A stretch of 13,217 bases of DNA from an uncultured Flammeovirgaceae bacterium. GTDB lineage: Bacteria > Bacteroidota > Bacteroidia > Cytophagales > Cyclobacteriaceae. The stretch lies in assembly GCA_937138955.1 (NCBI GenBank), contig CAKZPJ010000778.1, positions 1-13,217 of the forward strand. The letters are read 5' to 3'. The position numbers and the translations under genes are program-made. The notes below the pieces were generated by a model. The model was not told where the DNA came from, ran no database searches, and saw only the letters and a program-made list of their open reading frames with translations. Position 1 is the stretch's first letter; each line of letters opens with the position of its first letter. Below, piece by piece: positions 2,850 to 13,217 of this stretch.

Positions 2850-3545
2850 GTGACAAAATTTAAACTTGAATCTTTTCCTAGAAATGTTTCTGAGGAAAAC
2901 CTATTAGAAGATCTTAAAAGAGCCTATTCCATACTTCAAGGAAATGGTAAACGAATGACATTTAGGAGTTATCAGGAATTTGGAAAATATAGCGCAGGAA
3001 CTTATGGAGCTAGATTCGGGTCATGGAATAGCGCATTAGAAAAGTCAGGGCTTGAGTTAAATCAAGAGAAAAACGTCAGAAATATAGACCTTTTCGAGAA
3101 TCTTAAAACAGTCTGGATTTCAAAGGGGAAGCAGCCTGTTTGGAGAGATATGTCAAATCTCCCTTCAAAATATCAGGCTGGAATTTACAAGAACCGTTTT
3201 GGCAGCTGGAGAAATGCGCTAAAAGAGTTTGTTGAGTATATTAATGACGATTCAATTGACTTAGAAGAATCAGATAATGATGAACCAACAACAAAGAATA
3301 ATACAGAACATGCGAAAATAAAGAGGACTTCAAGAAACATTTCTGAAAGAATGCGTTTTCGAATTTTAGTCAGAGACGGTTTTGCATGCCAGTCTTGTGG
3401 AGCTAGTCCGTTAAAATCACGTAGAGTTGAACTTCATATTGATCATATCATTCCTTGGTCAAAAGGTGGCGAAACAGAGGATAAGAATCTTGAAACCAAG
3501 TGCAGCAAGTGCAATCTCGGAAAGGGAAATGCATTTGATAAATAA
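2850..3545 (+). CDS. HNH endonuclease with two homing-endonuclease-associated repeats
   Basis: A 231-residue predicted DNA endonuclease. Two copies of a helical DNA-binding repeat come first: about 12-69, ending SAGTYGARFGSWNSALEKSG, and about 78-130, ending QAGIYKNRFGSWRNALKEF. This is the repeat found next to HNH domains of homing-type endonucleases. After an acidic linker (133-150) comes an HNH domain (about 165-228): RILVRDGFACQSCG with zinc ligands Cys180 and Cys183, the catalytic-type HIDHI (His196, Asp198, His199), Asn213, then TKCSKCN with Cys218 and Cys221. All key residues are intact. The start is GTG at 2850 after an A-rich stretch (aaaaagaaacgagc). Twelve of 17 arginines use AGA/AGG, unlike neighbouring porQ and hslU, which points to acquired DNA. 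It is 19 bases upstream of a toxin-antitoxin-like pair. Homing activity as opposed to restriction or defence is open. Confidence 0.9.
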   Translation: MTKFKLESFPRNVSEENLLEDLKRAYSILQGNGKRMTFRSYQEFGKYSAGTYGARFGSWNSALEKSGLELNQEKNVRNIDLFENLKTVWISKGKQPVWRDMSNLPSKYQAGIYKNRFGSWRNALKEFVEYINDDSIDLEESDNDEPTTKNNTEHAKIKRTSRNISERMRFRILVRDGFACQSCGASPLKSRRVELHIDHIIPWSKGGETEDKNLETKCSKCNLGKGNAFDK

Positions 3546-3564
3546 TGAAAATCGTTTTAAAAAT

Positions 3565-3792
3565 ATGAGAACATTAACTTTAGAGGTACCCGACGATGTA
3601 GATTTAGAAAACCACGAACTGAAAATGATTCTGGCTACCAGACTTTACGAAAATGGCAAATTATCTTTAGGGCAAGCCGCTGACATGGCTGGTCTTTCCA
3701 AACATGCCTTCGCCGAACTTTTAGGAAAATACGGGGTCAACTACTTCAATCAAACGGAAGACGAACTACTAGATGATATTCAGAATGCCTGA
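3565..3792 (+). CDS. UPF0175 family antitoxin-like protein
   Basis: A 75-residue protein of the UPF0175 family, small helix-turn-helix proteins usually paired with a PIN-like partner and regarded as antitoxins. The core is LSLGQAADMAGLSKHAFAEL (33-52), the family's HTH-like segment, followed by LGKYGVNYFNQTEDELLDDI. I chose ATG at 3565 rather than the upstream in-frame ATG at 3427, because the extra 46 residues would overlap the HNH gene and have no family similarity, while MRTLTLEVPDDV is a typical family N-terminus. It begins 19 bases after the HNH stop, and its last 8 bases overlap the PIN gene, which implies translational coupling. Antitoxin function is inferred from family and gene order. 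Confidence 0.87.
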   Translation: MRTLTLEVPDDVDLENHELKMILATRLYENGKLSLGQAADMAGLSKHAFAELLGKYGVNYFNQTEDELLDDIQNA

Positions 3793-4240
3793 ATTGATTG
3801 TAGTTGATACCAGTTGTTTGATTGCGCTAACTAGAATTAACCATCTCTTATTGCTTCATCAGGTTTACGATAGCGTAATTATAACTCCTGAAATCAAACA
3901 AGAATTTAAATTTGAGCTGCCGGATTGGGTAGAAGTCCGTCACACGAGTAGCGATGAAGATTTAACTGTGATAAACTCATTAGTTGATTTAGGCGAGGCA
4001 TCGGCCATAAAATTTTGCCTAAAGAATAAAGACTCTTTACTAATTATTGATGATAGTAAGGGAAGAAAATTAGCAAAAAGGTTAGGAATTAAAGTAACGG
4101 GAACACTTGGGGTATTAGCAAAGGCTAAACGAAAAGGAGTAATAGATTCTGTTAAGCCTTATCTTGGTGCTTTAGAAAAAGTAGATTTCAGATTTGATGA
4201 GAAACTGAGAGCACTGATTCTTAAATCAGTAGGTGAATAA
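3785..4240 (+). CDS. DUF3368 PIN-like protein, toxin of the UPF0175 pair
   Basis: A 151-residue PIN-fold protein of the DUF3368 family, predicted ribonuclease and usual partner of UPF0175. The acidic PIN residues are in place: Asp8 in LIVVDTSCLIAL, Glu40 in TPEIKQEF, Glu71 in DLGEASAI, and Asp89/Asp90 in LLIIDDSKGRKLAKRLGI, followed by GTLGVLAKAKRKGVI. ATG at 3785 is preferred over ATG at 3773: it gives the normal MPELIVVDTS start and an 8-base overlap with the antitoxin. The reading frame is intact and of normal length for the family. Five of seven arginines are AGA/AGG, matching the HNH gene. porQ starts 33 bases later but reads as core-genome DNA, so the cassette seems to end near 4240. 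Toxicity is inferred, not shown. Confidence 0.87.
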   Translation: MPELIVVDTSCLIALTRINHLLLLHQVYDSVIITPEIKQEFKFELPDWVEVRHTSSDEDLTVINSLVDLGEASAIKFCLKNKDSLLIIDDSKGRKLAKRLGIKVTGTLGVLAKAKRKGVIDSVKPYLGALEKVDFRFDEKLRALILKSVGE

Positions 4241-8573: not shown

Positions 8574-9842
8574 TTAAACTTTCATTATTTTGTGCTTATC
8601 AATAAAATCGGGGTCAATCTCTACACCACTGCCTACGCCAGAAGGCAAGTGCAGAATTCCATTTTCGGGTTGTAATGAAGAGGTTTTGCACTCGAAGGGC
8701 ACTTCGGTACTAAGTCCTTTAAATTCGTGGTAAGGGCCCGCATTGGGTAGGGCGGAGACAAATTGCATCATGTAGATATAGCCCAACCCGGTGCCCGAAA
8801 TATGTGGTACACAAGAATAACCTTTGGTAGCAGCCATCCGGGCTACTTTCATGCAGCGGATCATGCCGCCGAAGTAGAATAAGTCCTGCTGCACCATCTG
8901 CACCGCTTCATTACCAATGAGCCAGCGAAAATTCCGTAGGCTCACTTCACCACCTCCCGAAGCAATCGGAATGTCCAGCGCATCAGCGGTCAATTTCCAG
9001 TCCTCGTACCAGTCAGTAGGTACTGGCTGTTCAAAAAGGTCAATGTTATGTTCTTGTAGCATTTTGCCAATGCGGATAGCTTCCGTTGCGCCGTAACTCC
9101 CGTTGCAGTCCGCGTAAATGGTAGTGTCATCACCAAAGGCTTCGCGCATCATCGGAATAAGACGTTCGCTGCGTCCAGTAGGTTCTTCGGGATTGCTACG
9201 CCTTCCCCCGATTTTAAATTTTACCGCTTTCGCATTGGTTTCTGCCTTTAGTTCCTTGATTCGTTCAATACTTGCTTTCGCTGATCTACCCCGATTATTA
9301 TTCGCTTGGTAAATGGCAATCTCCGTATTATGAATATCGCCAATGAGCTTACCCATACTTTTTTGAGCGATGCGTCCCAGCATATCCAGAATCGCTATCT
9401 CTACCGTTGCTACCGGAATCCAAAGGGTGTAACCCTGGTACTTATAGTTGTTTTTATACATAAATACCCCCTCAACTAATTGGTCTAATTCACGAGCGTC
9501 TTTTCCTATAAAATACGGGTTTACAAGTGTCAGTTGAATAGGGTAAAGGTGGGGCATTCGCAGGTTATGCCCCACGCAGTACCCTTCAGCTCCATCGGTA
9601 GAGCGGACGCGAACTATATAATTGCCATTATAGCGCAGCAAATCGCAGCTTTCAATCATCACTGGTTCAGGAAACAACTCTCGCTTAAGCACCTGTTGAG
9701 CCATTGCTTGATCTAATTCGGTATAATCGACCGACTTGGGTAGGGGAGTTGCCCTATTTTCTTTGGATAAGAACGGTACACTAGCTCCGGCCGCCAACCC
9801 GGTTTTTATAAATGATCTTCGGTGGTGGTTCGTAGTTGACAT
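8574..9842 (-). CDS. Tat-exported mandelate racemase/muconate lactonizing enzyme family protein
   Basis: A 422-residue enolase-superfamily enzyme, which abstracts the proton next to a carboxylate; typical substrates are sugar acids, which are dehydrated or epimerised. A twin-arginine signal (HHRRSFIKTGLAAGASVPF, 6-24) predicts export in folded form. The capping domain spans about 55-170. The barrel carries Lys208 and Lys210 (KFK), metal ligands Asp245 (YADCNGSY), Glu271 (LFEQPVP) and Glu299 (SGGGE), and Asp320 with His347 (VPHISGTG). The 26-residue gap from Asp245 to Glu271 and the 27-residue gap from Asp320 to His347 equal those of mandelate racemase, so the His-Asp dyad of that subgroup appears intact. 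The substrate cannot be read. The DUF6155 pseudogene begins directly at its stop; the AraC fusion gene is divergent, 106 bases away. Confidence 0.92.
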   Translation of the reverse strand: MSTTNHHRRSFIKTGLAAGASVPFLSKENRATPLPKSVDYTELDQAMAQQVLKRELFPEPVMIESCDLLRYNGNYIVRVRSTDGAEGYCVGHNLRMPHLYPIQLTLVNPYFIGKDARELDQLVEGVFMYKNNYKYQGYTLWIPVATVEIAILDMLGRIAQKSMGKLIGDIHNTEIAIYQANNNRGRSAKASIERIKELKAETNAKAVKFKIGGRRSNPEEPTGRSERLIPMMREAFGDDTTIYADCNGSYGATEAIRIGKMLQEHNIDLFEQPVPTDWYEDWKLTADALDIPIASGGGEVSLRNFRWLIGNEAVQMVQQDLFYFGGMIRCMKVARMAATKGYSCVPHISGTGLGYIYMMQFVSALPNAGPYHEFKGLSTEVPFECKTSSLQPENGILHLPSGVGSGVEIDPDFIDKHKIMKV

Positions 9843-9948: not shown

Positions 9949-11619
9949 ATGAAGCCCGTCACTCAGTACACTAAAAGCGACCGTATCAACATCGCTTATC
10001 AAGTTTTTGGCTCCGGATCAATTGATTTGGTATATATTCCTGGTTGGGTCTCTAATATCGACTGGATGTGGGCTTGTCCGGAATTAGTCGATTTTTTACT
10101 TGAATTGGGAAAAATAGCTAGAGTCATCCTGTTCGATAAGCGGGGTACTGGGCTTTCTGATCGGGTGGTGGAACTTTCAACGCTAGAGGAGCGAATGGAC
10201 GATATCCGAGCGGTTATGGATGCGGTAGGTTCTCAGAAAGCCGTGCTGTTCGGTCACTCGGAAGGTGGTTCGGTCTCGGCCTTGTTTGCCGCTACCTATC
10301 CTAATCGGACAATTTCGTTAATTGCCTTTGGGGCATTCGCCAAGCGTAAACACTCTCCTGACTATCCCTGGGCACCTACCGATCAGGAGCGTCAAGCAGT
10401 TTACGACATGATTGAGAGTAGCTGGGGAAGTGGGGATATGGACTTAGCCTCGCTGGCGCCCTCCAAAGCTCACGATAAAACCTTTATGGAGTGGCTGGCC
10501 AACTATTTCCGTTCGGGAGCCAGCCCCAGCGCGGCTATGGTACTTACTACCATGAATACGCACGTTGATATTGTGGATATTTTAGATACCATAAAAGTGC
10601 CTGCTTTATTGATGCAACGCACCCACGATATTGATGTGAAAATAGAAGAGGGAAGGTTTATTGCAGAACGCATTGAAGGGGCTAAATTTGTAGAGTTTGC
10701 GGGTAGCGACCATTTATTTTGGGCCGGTAATACGCAAGAAATTCTGGAAGAGATAAAGACCTTTGTTCTAAATGTACAGCCTAAGACTAATTACGAAAAG
10801 CAGCTTTTTACCATTGTAGCCGCTCGCATAATACCCAGGAAAACCGTCGACACCAATAATCAAGAATTTATTGAGCAGTTCGTAGCGCACTACCGGGGAA
10901 AGATAATTCAGTACAATCATAAGGGCTTTATTGCCACGTTTGAAGGACCCAGCAAAGCGGTTCATTGCAGTATAGATCTACTACCGGCCACCCAACAGCT
11001 AAACGCTCAGCTTGCTATTGGGATTCATATTAAAGAATGCGTGGTAGATGGCCCGTATCCTATCAATGGCGAAGTGAAAAGTACTCTGGAAGGGATACTA
11101 AACCAGACAAAAGCCAATCAGGTTGTAGTCACGCGAACGGTAAAGCACTTGCTGTCGGGGGCGGGGCTGAGCTTTACTCCCTACAAAACAATTCTCGACT
11201 CTGCATCTGGTGAATCGCGCACCCTACTAATAGTGAAAGATCGTTTTGAGACTAACGTTCAGTCAGATCATTCTAATCCTAAGCAACCTTTAAAAAATGG
11301 CTCTTTGCTGGAAAATGTACTGCAAAGCATTGATAATCACTTAAGTAACGAGTTCTTTGGCATAGAAATGTTGTGCCAAGAAATTGGTATAAGCGAACGG
11401 CAATTGCAGCGCAAGCTCAAATTAACCACCAATAAGTCTCCTAATCAATTAATCCGATCGGTTCGCCTGCACCGGGCTAAGGAACTAATTATAAGTAATA
11501 AGGGTAATATCGTTGAAATCGCTTTTCAGACGGGTTTCTCAGACCCTTCATACTTTGCCAAATGCTTTAAAAAAGAGTTTGGTGCCACTCCTTCTTCACT
11601 AGTTCAAGAGAGCATATAG
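9949..11619 (+). CDS. Alpha/beta hydrolase - degenerate cyclase-like - AraC transcriptional regulator fusion
   Basis: A 556-residue three-part protein. Residues 1-275 are an alpha/beta hydrolase: oxyanion-region PGWVSNIDW (31-39), nucleophile elbow GHSEGG with Ser104, probable acid Asp227, and His255 in AGSDHLFW. The triad looks intact. Residues about 284-430 align by eye with the class III cyclase domain often fused to such hydrolases. Its TGDG-LATF hallmark has become YNHKGFIATF (322-331), the metal-binding aspartates are missing, and the VNIAAR-type segment is VKSTLEGIL, so it should not make cAMP. Residues about 453-556 are an AraC DNA-binding domain with two HTHs (LCQEIGISERQLQRKLKL and IVEIAFQTGFSDPSYFAKCF). 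No signal or membrane segment is seen. I infer a cytoplasmic ligand-responsive regulator. The repeats just after the stop are candidate targets. Confidence 0.87.
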   Translation: MKPVTQYTKSDRINIAYQVFGSGSIDLVYIPGWVSNIDWMWACPELVDFLLELGKIARVILFDKRGTGLSDRVVELSTLEERMDDIRAVMDAVGSQKAVLFGHSEGGSVSALFAATYPNRTISLIAFGAFAKRKHSPDYPWAPTDQERQAVYDMIESSWGSGDMDLASLAPSKAHDKTFMEWLANYFRSGASPSAAMVLTTMNTHVDIVDILDTIKVPALLMQRTHDIDVKIEEGRFIAERIEGAKFVEFAGSDHLFWAGNTQEILEEIKTFVLNVQPKTNYEKQLFTIVAARIIPRKTVDTNNQEFIEQFVAHYRGKIIQYNHKGFIATFEGPSKAVHCSIDLLPATQQLNAQLAIGIHIKECVVDGPYPINGEVKSTLEGILNQTKANQVVVTRTVKHLLSGAGLSFTPYKTILDSASGESRTLLIVKDRFETNVQSDHSNPKQPLKNGSLLENVLQSIDNHLSNEFFGIEMLCQEIGISERQLQRKLKLTTNKSPNQLIRSVRLHRAKELIISNKGNIVEIAFQTGFSDPSYFAKCFKKEFGATPSSLVQESI

Positions 11620-11629
11620 CACTGGGTTA

Positions 11630-11706
11630 TGTCGGAAATGTCATAGTCGTGTCGGAAATGTCGTAGTCATGTCGGATTTCCCCCAATCTGATGTCGGAAA
11701 TATCAT
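11630..11706. promoter_or_regulatory. Four TGTCGGA direct repeats, candidate AraC-type operator
   Basis: TGTCGGA begins at 11630, 11650, 11670 and 11692. The first two copies belong to 20-base units that differ at two positions (TGTCGGAAATGTCATAGTCG and TGTCGGAAATGTCGTAGTCA). The third diverges after TGTCGGA, and the fourth reads TGTCGGAAATATCAT. Spacings of 20, 20 and 22 bases put all boxes on one face of the helix, like the direct-repeat half-sites bound by AraC-family proteins. They start 10 bases after the stop of the AraC fusion gene and end 44 bases before a -7 box. Function is inferred from geometry and position. Confidence 0.55.
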
Positions 11707-11708
11707 AT

Positions 11709-11727
11709 AATTCGCCGGAATTTTTTT
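11709..11727 (+). terminator. Weak intrinsic terminator after the AraC-fusion gene
   Basis: AATTC, a GCCG loop and GAATT form a 5-base-pair stem (11709-11722), and a run of T continues to 11727. The T-run is good but the stem is short and AT-rich. It lies between the direct repeats and the -7 box. Confidence 0.3.
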
Positions 11728-11749
11728 ATAATCTAACCCCCCGGTTACT

Positions 11750-11757
11750 TACTTTTG
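11750..11757 (+). promoter_or_regulatory. Bacteroidota-type -7 promoter box
   Basis: TACTTTTG is an exact match to the TAnnTTTG -7 element of the primary Bacteroidota sigma factor. No TTG is found 17-23 bases upstream, so the -33 element is missing; this is what would be expected of an activator-dependent promoter, and the TGTCGGA boxes end 44 bases upstream. Transcription would start near 11763, leaving a leader of about 460 bases before the lipoprotein gene. Confidence 0.4.
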
Positions 11758-11762
11758 TAACA

Positions 11763-12222: not shown

Positions 12223-13011
12223 ATGCAATCTCTTAAAAGTCTTTTAATCATTTTATTAACCGTAGGTTATACTTTATTCTTTACCGCTTGTAGCGAAGAT
12301 GACAGCGCAACGCCTGATCCCGTTGAAACGGCTCAGCAGGTGAACCTCGCCAATGATGGCACCCTGGGACCGTATTTAGTAAATCAGGATGGTCGGGCGC
12401 TGTATTTCTTTAGCCGCGACGTAGACGGTAGCAGCGCCTGTGTAGACGGGTGTCTGGATGCCTGGCCGGTTTTTCATCGGGACAACTTAGAATTTGGTAG
12501 TGGTCTTAGCAGTCCCGACTTCGGTACTATTACCCGGGAAGATGGACAGCAACAGACTACCTACAAAGGCTGGCCGCTGTACTATTACTCCGGCGACAGT
12601 GGTGCCGACGAAATTAACGGTGAAGGCGTAGGGCAAGTGTGGTTCGTAGCTAAGCCCGATTATACCCTCATGCTGGCCACTCAAACGGTAGAAGGAGTAG
12701 GAAGTGATCCAATTTCTTACCTAGTAGATGCCGAAGGAAACAGTCTGTACTATTTCTTGAATGATGAAGATAACGTGAGCACCTGTGTGGATGGATGCCT
12801 GCAAGCCTGGCCAGCCTTCAGCGAAGTAGCCGATGTTGTGCTTCCTTCTACCCTGAATCAAGGCGCTTTTGCCTCGATTGACCGACCCGATGGCGATAAG
12901 CAACTAACCTACGCCGGACGACCTATTTATTTCTTTGCCCAAGATAGTGAGCGAGGGGACACCAATGGAGCTACCGCGCCTAATTGGACGATTTCTCAAC
13001 TGCCTCAGTAG
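12223..13011 (+). CDS. COG4315-type lipoprotein with duplicated Yx(F/W/Y)xxD repeat domain
   Basis: A 262-residue predicted lipoprotein; signal residues 1-22, lipobox FFTAC, lipidated Cys23. Two homologous halves follow, about 44-145 and 160-260. Each starts with a GPYLVNQDGRALYFF / ISYLVDAEGNSLYYF strand pair, carries a CVDGCLxAWP block (Cys73/Cys77 and Cys188/Cys192), and ends with a Y(K/A)G(W/R)P(L/I)Y(Y/F) segment. The diagnostic Yx(F/W/Y)xxD motif occurs four times: Tyr61-Asp66, Tyr120-Asp125, Tyr176-Asp181 and Tyr236-Asp241. This is the Lipoprotein_15/COG4315 family, of unknown function. The CxxxC pairs could form disulfides or bind a metal, which is inference. Another lipoprotein gene starts 8 bases after the stop, so the two form an operon, probably behind the candidate AraC-type promoter. 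Confidence 0.9.
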   Translation: MQSLKSLLIILLTVGYTLFFTACSEDDSATPDPVETAQQVNLANDGTLGPYLVNQDGRALYFFSRDVDGSSACVDGCLDAWPVFHRDNLEFGSGLSSPDFGTITREDGQQQTTYKGWPLYYYSGDSGADEINGEGVGQVWFVAKPDYTLMLATQTVEGVGSDPISYLVDAEGNSLYYFLNDEDNVSTCVDGCLQAWPAFSEVADVVLPSTLNQGAFASIDRPDGDKQLTYAGRPIYFFAQDSERGDTNGATAPNWTISQLPQ

Positions 13012-13019
13012 CCATAGCA

Positions 13020-13217
13020 ATGAAGAAGCTTATCCATAGAGCAGTTGCCACGTATCTGATGACCTCGCTACTAGCGGCTTGCACTTACGACGTGGTACCT
13101 GAACCGCAAAATTGCGATGCACCACCTAGTCTTCAATTAGTATCAGTAACCGAGGCTAGCTGTGGTCTGGCCTCGGGAGCGGTACAAGTACAAGCTGATG
13201 GTGGAGTAGCCCCATAT
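13020..13217 (+). CDS. Lipoprotein with SprB-like repeat, N-terminal part (cut by window edge)
   Basis: The frame from ATG 13020 is open for 66 codons to the window edge. Residues 1-20 form a signal with a basic start (MKKLIHR) and lipobox LLAAC, so Cys21 is lipidated. A short linker (TYDVVPEPQN) leads to CDAPPSLQLVSVTEASC, then GAVQVQADGGVAPY. The pattern of a VTxAxC strand, a polar turn with G, and GGVxPY is that of SprB-type or similar Ig-like surface repeats common in Bacteroidota. The rest is missing, so any catalytic or cytochrome domain cannot be seen. It lies 8 bases behind the COG4315 lipoprotein and is probably co-transcribed and co-localised with it on the outer membrane. Confidence 0.78.
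   Translation, partial: MKKLIHRAVATYLMTSLLAACTYDVVPEPQNCDAPPSLQLVSVTEASCGLASGAVQVQADGGVAPY

Follow-up and report, generated by a model that had tools for sequence, protein, structure and literature searches.

Which signal and which genes are connected by a protein that carries an alpha/beta-hydrolase at one end, an AraC-type DNA-binding domain at the other and a degenerate cyclase between them is the question raised by an open reading frame (ORF) of a 13,217-nucleotide stretch of DNA (contig CAKZPJ010000778.1, assembly GCA_937138955.1, from an uncultured Flammeovirgaceae bacterium), hereafter the window. Comparison with relatives argues that the protein is probably a one-component transcription activator, in which the hydrolase would be the sensor, the decayed cyclase a dimer and relay module, and the AraC domain would act on repeats placed before a TAnnTTTG box. 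The gene and its parts are as follows.

9949..11619, + strand: hydrolase-pseudocyclase-AraC regulator gene (ORF, 556 aa)
9949..10773, + strand: alpha/beta-hydrolase domain, residues 1-275 (Pfam, alignment, structure comparison)
10258-10260, 10627-10629 and 10711-10713, + strand: codons of the hydrolase triad S104, D227 and H255
10798..11238, + strand: decayed class III cyclase domain, residues 284-430 (profile, fold, alignment)
11248..11301, + strand: low-confidence linker, residues 434-451 (predicted local distance difference test, pLDDT < 50)
11305..11616, + strand: AraC-type DNA-binding domain, residues 453-556 (Pfam, alignment)

The three-domain order proposed by the sequence-only reading was borne out, at both ends by Pfam and in the middle by fold. 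PF00561 (residues 27-148, E 3.6e-13; 50.2 bits against a cut-off of 25.8) and PF12146 (58-245) fall on the hydrolase, and PF12833 (HTH_18/HTH_AraC, 475-551, E 1.1e-22) reaches 80.6 bits against a curated cut-off of 33.6, which places the two ends among the alpha/beta-hydrolases with a Ser-Asp-His triad and the AraC/XylS domains, respectively. The suspected triad is indeed complete, S104 and H255 being kept in 79/79 aligned proteins and D227 in 78/79, and the hydrolase part superposes on esterase structures with a template modeling (TM) score of 0.86 (by target length). At the DNA-binding end, R484, Q487, R488, S534, Y535 and F536 are kept in 176/176 aligned rows. No cyclase family was matched in the Pfam search of the protein, and DJ-1/PfpI, GerE and BTAD domains are absent from its 12 Pfam matches up to E 1.

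The middle domain was placed by other means. The NCBIfam model for LipJ (NF058673) matches the whole regulator with E 7e-71 and the middle part alone with E 1.2e-10; at 239.3 bits, with a cut-off of 800 bits, the regulator falls outside that family. Rv1900c/LipJ of Mycobacterium tuberculosis (cyclase-domain structures 1ybt and 1ybu) has the same hydrolase-cyclase order and is the middle domain's best sequence match among solved structures; it has no AraC domain and, unlike it, the window protein has lost the cyclase residues. Ma1120 (4wp9, 5d15) was solved with ATP and metal according to the structure titles, whereas the window domain lacks the metal residues, and the solved chains of both Ma1120 and the Silicibacter cyclase/hydrolase (3mr7) have no DNA-binding end. 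That residues 284-430 might be unrelated to cyclases, in view of a weak Pfam ALS_ss_C match (E 0.05), was rejected because profile and structural model agree on the class III cyclase fold. Against relatives with complete motifs, the alignment puts R293 at the first metal Asp, K325 at the second (NHKG for TGDG), S378 in place of Asn/His and G382 in place of Arg; neither these four catalytic residues of class III nucleotide cyclases nor PF00211, which matches 9/76 relatives, is found in the window's domain, in agreement with the motif loss first read from the letters. It is also the fastest-changing part of the regulator, with a median identity to the window protein of 37% among relatives, against 66% for the AraC domain and 78% for the hydrolase. 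The DUF2652 cyclase-like family was considered as its source and rejected; in the main text of PMC4886424 this family has hydrolases as gene neighbours and AraC does not appear.

The architecture is not a product of chance, since all homologues among the matches listed carry both a hydrolase domain and HTH_18 (120/120 of the best 120 of 7772 matches, 66-100% identity, 8000 candidates scored); one of them, at 82% identity, comes from Tunicatimonas pelagia, a culturable relative. The sequence-only reading had allowed that the fusion might be a common, already characterised family; it is common, yet no description of a hydrolase-cyclase-AraC fusion was found in the open-licence literature, among the matches listed. 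Of the 80 loci kept by a genome scan, 70 (L009-L078) have all three parts, the hydrolase end of two being cut by the contig, and they are labelled as Bacteroidota or Balneolota. Two metagenome bins are the exceptions, L011 being labelled Thalassovita and L017 Rickettsiales; the L011 contig is also present in G584, a genome from the window's own order. The distribution is patchy: the full protein occurs in 5/395 genomes of the phylum sample and 8/291 of the order, the window's genome being in both. In one more genome, G103, a hydrolase-AraC protein of 398 aa that lacks the cyclase part is present twice.

A quick tree of 149 rows (thinned at 93% identity from 174 hydrolase rows, cyclase columns excluded; 60/146 inner branches with support below 80) unites the 142 hydrolase-cyclase-AraC rows in one clade (Shimodaira-Hasegawa-like approximate likelihood ratio test, SH-aLRT, 99). 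All five tree rows with the complete set of four cyclase residues belong to a single subclade of 26 rows (89). The clade of 100 rows that contains the window (99) has no such member (72 rows have zero and 28 have one), and the outgroups L080, L082, L084 and L086 have all four. Among aligned AraC-fused relatives 8/167 keep all four, in a sample that one search had enriched for intact members. Because regain of four residues is unlikely, the sequences make it most likely that the AraC end came first and the cyclase decayed later, several times, after a single AraC fusion. In the history envisaged from the sequence alone, what changes is the order, with the AraC domain most likely acquired before the motifs were lost. 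The clade includes intact, partial and dead members, and the domain would represent a cyclase turning non-catalytic inside a sensor. Hydrolases joined to an AraC domain of a different kind, with no cyclase part between the two, are found at L116:4743-5939 and L116:13389-14585, two copies in one genome, and at L088:8001-9191. L088 groups outside the main clade with L082 (94, on a branch that is long), so that AraC may have been captured a second time, independently. Certain rows were left out of these comparisons: L079 and L081, which lie at contig ends, and L083, which has another architecture, from some counts; L072, L081 and L088 from alignment A4; and L072, L079, L081 and L083 from a 183-row alignment, for which one in four of P0002-P0120 was taken.

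If the protein binds DNA, its sites should be visible near its genes, and the following elements are predicted immediately 3' of the window's regulator.

11629..11731, + strand: predicted operator of five direct repeats (position weight matrix, PWM, and sequence)
11629, 11649, 11669, 11691 and 11712, + strand: starts of the repeats (PWM 23.4, 17.7, 7.4, 10.5 and 8.4 bits)
11750..11757, + strand: TACTTTTG, predicted -7 promoter box of the TAnnTTTG type, 38 bp past the start of the fifth repeat

The motif, aTGTCGGAaATgTTaTAGTa, came from an expectation-maximisation (EM) search of 17 regulator-operon gaps, with a likelihood of 156 against 50-57 in three shuffles. The window contributed the last 420 bp of its gap, where the best score is 1.8 and no training site was taken, its array lying outside; the two highest window scores, at 11629 and 11649, thus come from a matrix of 16 sites of other loci. 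The repeats are 20-22 bp apart in the window, with a spacing peak of 21 bp across arrays, so that in sequence they have the form of an AraC/XylS operator, direct repeats about two helical turns apart. In untrained loci, sites of at least 16 bits lie within 700 bp downstream on the + strand in 23/62, on the - strand in 0/62 and upstream in 1/62 (23/62 vs 1/62, p 2.9e-7), inside the regulator gene in 0/63 and further on in 3/57. Such a site occurs somewhere in 48/71 loci, every one on the + strand, and 12 of these 48 gave training sites. A motif search 5' of the regulator, in 37 upstream regions, gave a likelihood of 85 against 59-62 in shuffles (width 20), with low information. These predicted operators support the role of DNA-binding regulator that the domain order had suggested.

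The TAnnTTTG box formed no part of the operator matrix. Its distance from the start of the last repeat is 38-39 bp in 39/73 arrays and 59-60 bp in 12/73, and a box falls within 20-60 bp in 52/73 arrays against a mean of 1.86 after shuffling; in untrained loci the two distances are found in 28/47 and 8/47, and five rearranged boxes give 0. The Bacteroidota sigma-A -7 box TAnnTTTG is placed at -12 to -5 in the text of PMC9723704, and if this position applies, transcription is predicted to start near 11762. The layout of repeats plus box fits an activator promoter, repression being also compatible with it.

Patterns searched across genomes point to the same partnership. In 291 genomes of the order, the exact tandem pattern is present in 4/8 regulator-bearing genomes and 9/283 others (p 1.5e-4; reversed control 7/291), and repeat plus box in 4/8 and 2/283 (p 3.5e-6; reversed control 5/291), the array being absent from both regulator-free genomes matched. 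Of the four matching regulator-bearing genomes, G435 and G666 have new, unlinked sites. With the tandem step fixed at 21 bp and 3 mismatches allowed, only 2/291 genomes match, both regulator-bearing; the window, where the first step is 20 bp, is missed. A relaxed pattern matched 6 of 12 regulator-bearing genomes, compared with 2 for the reversed control, and in the window's genome it matches nothing but the window's own promoter. A large regulon in that genome was rejected, because the single-site pattern with up to 2 mismatches gave 13 matches against 14 for the reversed control. The unlinked matches precede two c-type cytochrome lipoproteins (G435), the extracellular contractile injection system (eCIS) gene Pvc16_N (G666), a PF03640 gene (G108) and a 507-aa ORF with a lipoprotein-like start (G633); G666 and G108 are the two genomes without a linked target at the regulator (L112, L117).

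In the window, the predicted promoter faces two genes.

12223..13011, + strand: predicted target, PF03640 (Lipoprotein_15) secreted-repeat lipoprotein (neighbourhood)
13020..13217, + strand: predicted target, SprB-repeat/c-type cytochrome lipoprotein, start part, cut by the contig end

Similar genes recur in a survey of 71 loci (the 70 and the window), 53 of which have at least four genes downstream. Within six genes, YceI and DUF5777 genes lie downstream in 14/71 loci and upstream in 2, PF03640 downstream in 6/71 (window included) and upstream in 2, and eCIS genes (Pvc16_N, sheath) downstream in 7/71 and upstream in 0. L009 and L010 encode CsgE downstream of the regulator, and L076 has a weaker relative on the upstream side. 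Contig C830 of the window's genome starts with the end of a DUF5777 gene, followed by a small protein, CsgE and CsgF, these genes being 76-83% identical to those 3' of the regulator in L009/L010; it probably follows the window. Twelve further stretches were compared, three of which (L115, L118 and L119) duplicate L011, L034 and L033, while the cyclase part is absent from L116. PF03640 or the cytochrome cluster is found at most three genes downstream on the same strand in 8/11 full-length loci, or in 6/8 without the repeated ones, the misses being L112 and L117. Of the 73 operator sites that have the start of a gene no more than 800 bp away, 18 lie before a cytochrome lipoprotein, 6 PF03640, 5 Pvc16_N, 4 leucine-rich-repeat genes, 3 csgE and 1 the regulator itself. 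Secreted proteins are common in Bacteroidota; as far as the named targets go, the predictions point to surface and envelope functions, half of the sites preceding other genes. Nothing on DUF5777, nor on PF03640 together with YceI, was found in the open-licence literature. In a published model, eCIS regulators respond to "yet unknown signals" (PMC8213781), and here a hydrolase-based putative sensor adjoins eCIS operons, with an operator directly before Pvc16_N in 4/7 of these loci (L030, L047, L049, L050) and in the unlinked case of G666. Since the regulator class comes with a predicted operator, promoter spacing and regulon, the question of its signal becomes directly testable.

From these comparisons we envisage that a small molecule resembling an ester or a lactone is bound, and probably cleaved, by the N-terminal hydrolase. 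Since class III cyclases are active as dimers, the decayed domain, which keeps the fold, would most likely hold the dimer and relay the ligand-induced change. The AraC domains would then bind the tandem direct repeats about 21 bp apart, which by comparison end at a fixed distance upstream of the TAnnTTTG box, and would recruit RNA polymerase. The window has its genome's sole such predicted promoter right behind the regulator gene, aimed at the PF03640 and c-type cytochrome lipoproteins, and in relatives the promoter stands before PF03640/cytochrome genes, the YceI/DUF5777 cluster, eCIS, leucine-rich-repeat or curli genes, and others. Several observations weigh against this proposal. The L088 and L116 kinds of protein manage without a cyclase part, the counts do not represent independent events, many of the loci being from related genera (Aquimarina, Kordia), and 23/71 loci have no site of at least 16 bits. 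Half of the genomes with the regulator, including that of the window, escape the strict pattern, two of the four with repeat plus box (G633, G584) have linked sites already in the 73-array set, and a single loose site is no commoner genome-wide than the reversed control pattern. In the window, 594 bp separate the first repeat from the PF03640 start, so that the leader would have to be long; 36/73 operator sites precede genes outside the named families, and in 3/7 eCIS loci strong sites lie 5' of the regulator, before other genes.

The arrays could instead belong to another regulator, with the hydrolase-AraC gene a mere neighbour: LytTR proteins bind direct repeats of similar period, LytTR is found upstream in 4 of the 71 loci, and TPR-type (tetratricopeptide repeat) proteins, some with LuxR or histidine-kinase domains, in up to 25/71. 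This is improbable in our judgement, given that the window has the array, yet 12/13 upstream ORFs of at least 100 aa lack such a domain (the thirteenth is antisense to another ORF), that array plus box tracks the hydrolase-AraC gene across genomes, unlinked sites included, and that the best site behind eight hydrolase genes without this AraC domain reaches 10.4 bits. Equally hard to favour is a metabolic enzyme that tunes its own expression through its AraC end; in its favour, no other part is as well conserved as the hydrolase, with its complete triad, whereas the strong sites are 3' of the gene and face away, the single exception upstream noted above aside. Somewhat less remote, though still unlikely, is the idea that the cyclase part takes in a second signal by binding a nucleotide (ATP or cAMP, for instance), for which speak the retained fold and the AraC-fused relatives with four catalytic residues; the rapid change of this part and the window's missing metal and transition-state residues argue the other way.

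A more serious competitor, doubtful as it is, concerns the hydrolase, which by analogy might be a receptor. In plant KAI2/D14 receptors the triad is proposed to serve covalent or tight ligand binding rather than turnover, and KAI2/HTL structures rank within the top 50 structural matches to the hydrolase part. The same list includes esterases, an enol-lactonase and an esterase degrading N-acyl-homoserine lactone (AHL); fold likeness is uninformative on turnover, and PMC10865251 lists LipJ among characterised esterases.

Compared with known systems, the putative activator combines familiar parts. It shares the C-terminal double helix-turn-helix of AraC/XylS regulators, whose usual sensor is another fold, in place of which it has the hydrolase and decayed cyclase, and its tandem direct repeats, spaced by about 21 bp and adjoining a promoter, resemble the AraC I1-I2 sites. 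Regulators of the GlxA type, in which a DJ-1/PfpI domain is joined to AraC, likewise use an enzyme fold as AraC input, although a different one. KAI2/D14 receptors, which have the alpha/beta-hydrolase fold in common with it, signal via partner proteins, whereas here the DNA-binding domain is fused. The eCIS regulators with GerE or BTAD adjoin eCIS operons as relatives of our regulator do, with different DNA-binding domains, AraC being unmentioned in the main text (PMC8213781).

Among 120 listed relatives of the L083 module (about 650-2070 aa), inspection by eye found a kinase in 110, an OmpR-type winged helix in 72, a Pfam-recognised cyclase in 7, SARP in 2, LuxR in 1 and TIR in 1. We tentatively raise the possibility, which we would not call likely, that hydrolase plus decayed cyclase form a sensory cassette of general use, so far undescribed, that responds to a diffusible ester or lactone and is wired in Bacteroidota and Balneolota by AraC and a shared TGTCGGA operator to surface and community functions (injection particles, curli, leucine-rich-repeat proteins, the cytochrome cluster), and elsewhere fused to kinases, to OmpR-, LuxR- or SARP-type DNA-binding domains, or to TIR. 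In the L061 search, PF00211 stands beside HTH_18 in 15/120 listed rows by eye, excluding P0111 (756 aa), a protein that begins with an extra cyclase domain, matched by PF00211 and bearing FTDI and GDG motifs, before the hydrolase, decayed cyclase and AraC domains.

Some neighbours deserve mention in their own right. A second hydrolase-type relative, likely a tandem duplication, lies immediately 3' of the regulator at L057:10099-11763. TPR histidine kinases, LytTR response regulators or TPR-LuxR proteins were seen upstream of the regulator in L017, L018, L021, L025 and Aquimarina loci. In the window's genome (G000), contig C332 (L104, L106) has a second cytochrome/YceI/DUF5777 cluster, where no strong operator was seen in the stretch covered (best score 9.5 bits). 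Within the window, positions 8574-9842 (-) hold a divergent enolase-superfamily gene, with a twin-arginine-like start judged by eye, found in the window alone among the neighbours compared in 71 loci, and positions 3427-4240 (+) hold a UPF0175 ORF followed by a DUF3368 ORF, which resemble a toxin-antitoxin pair.
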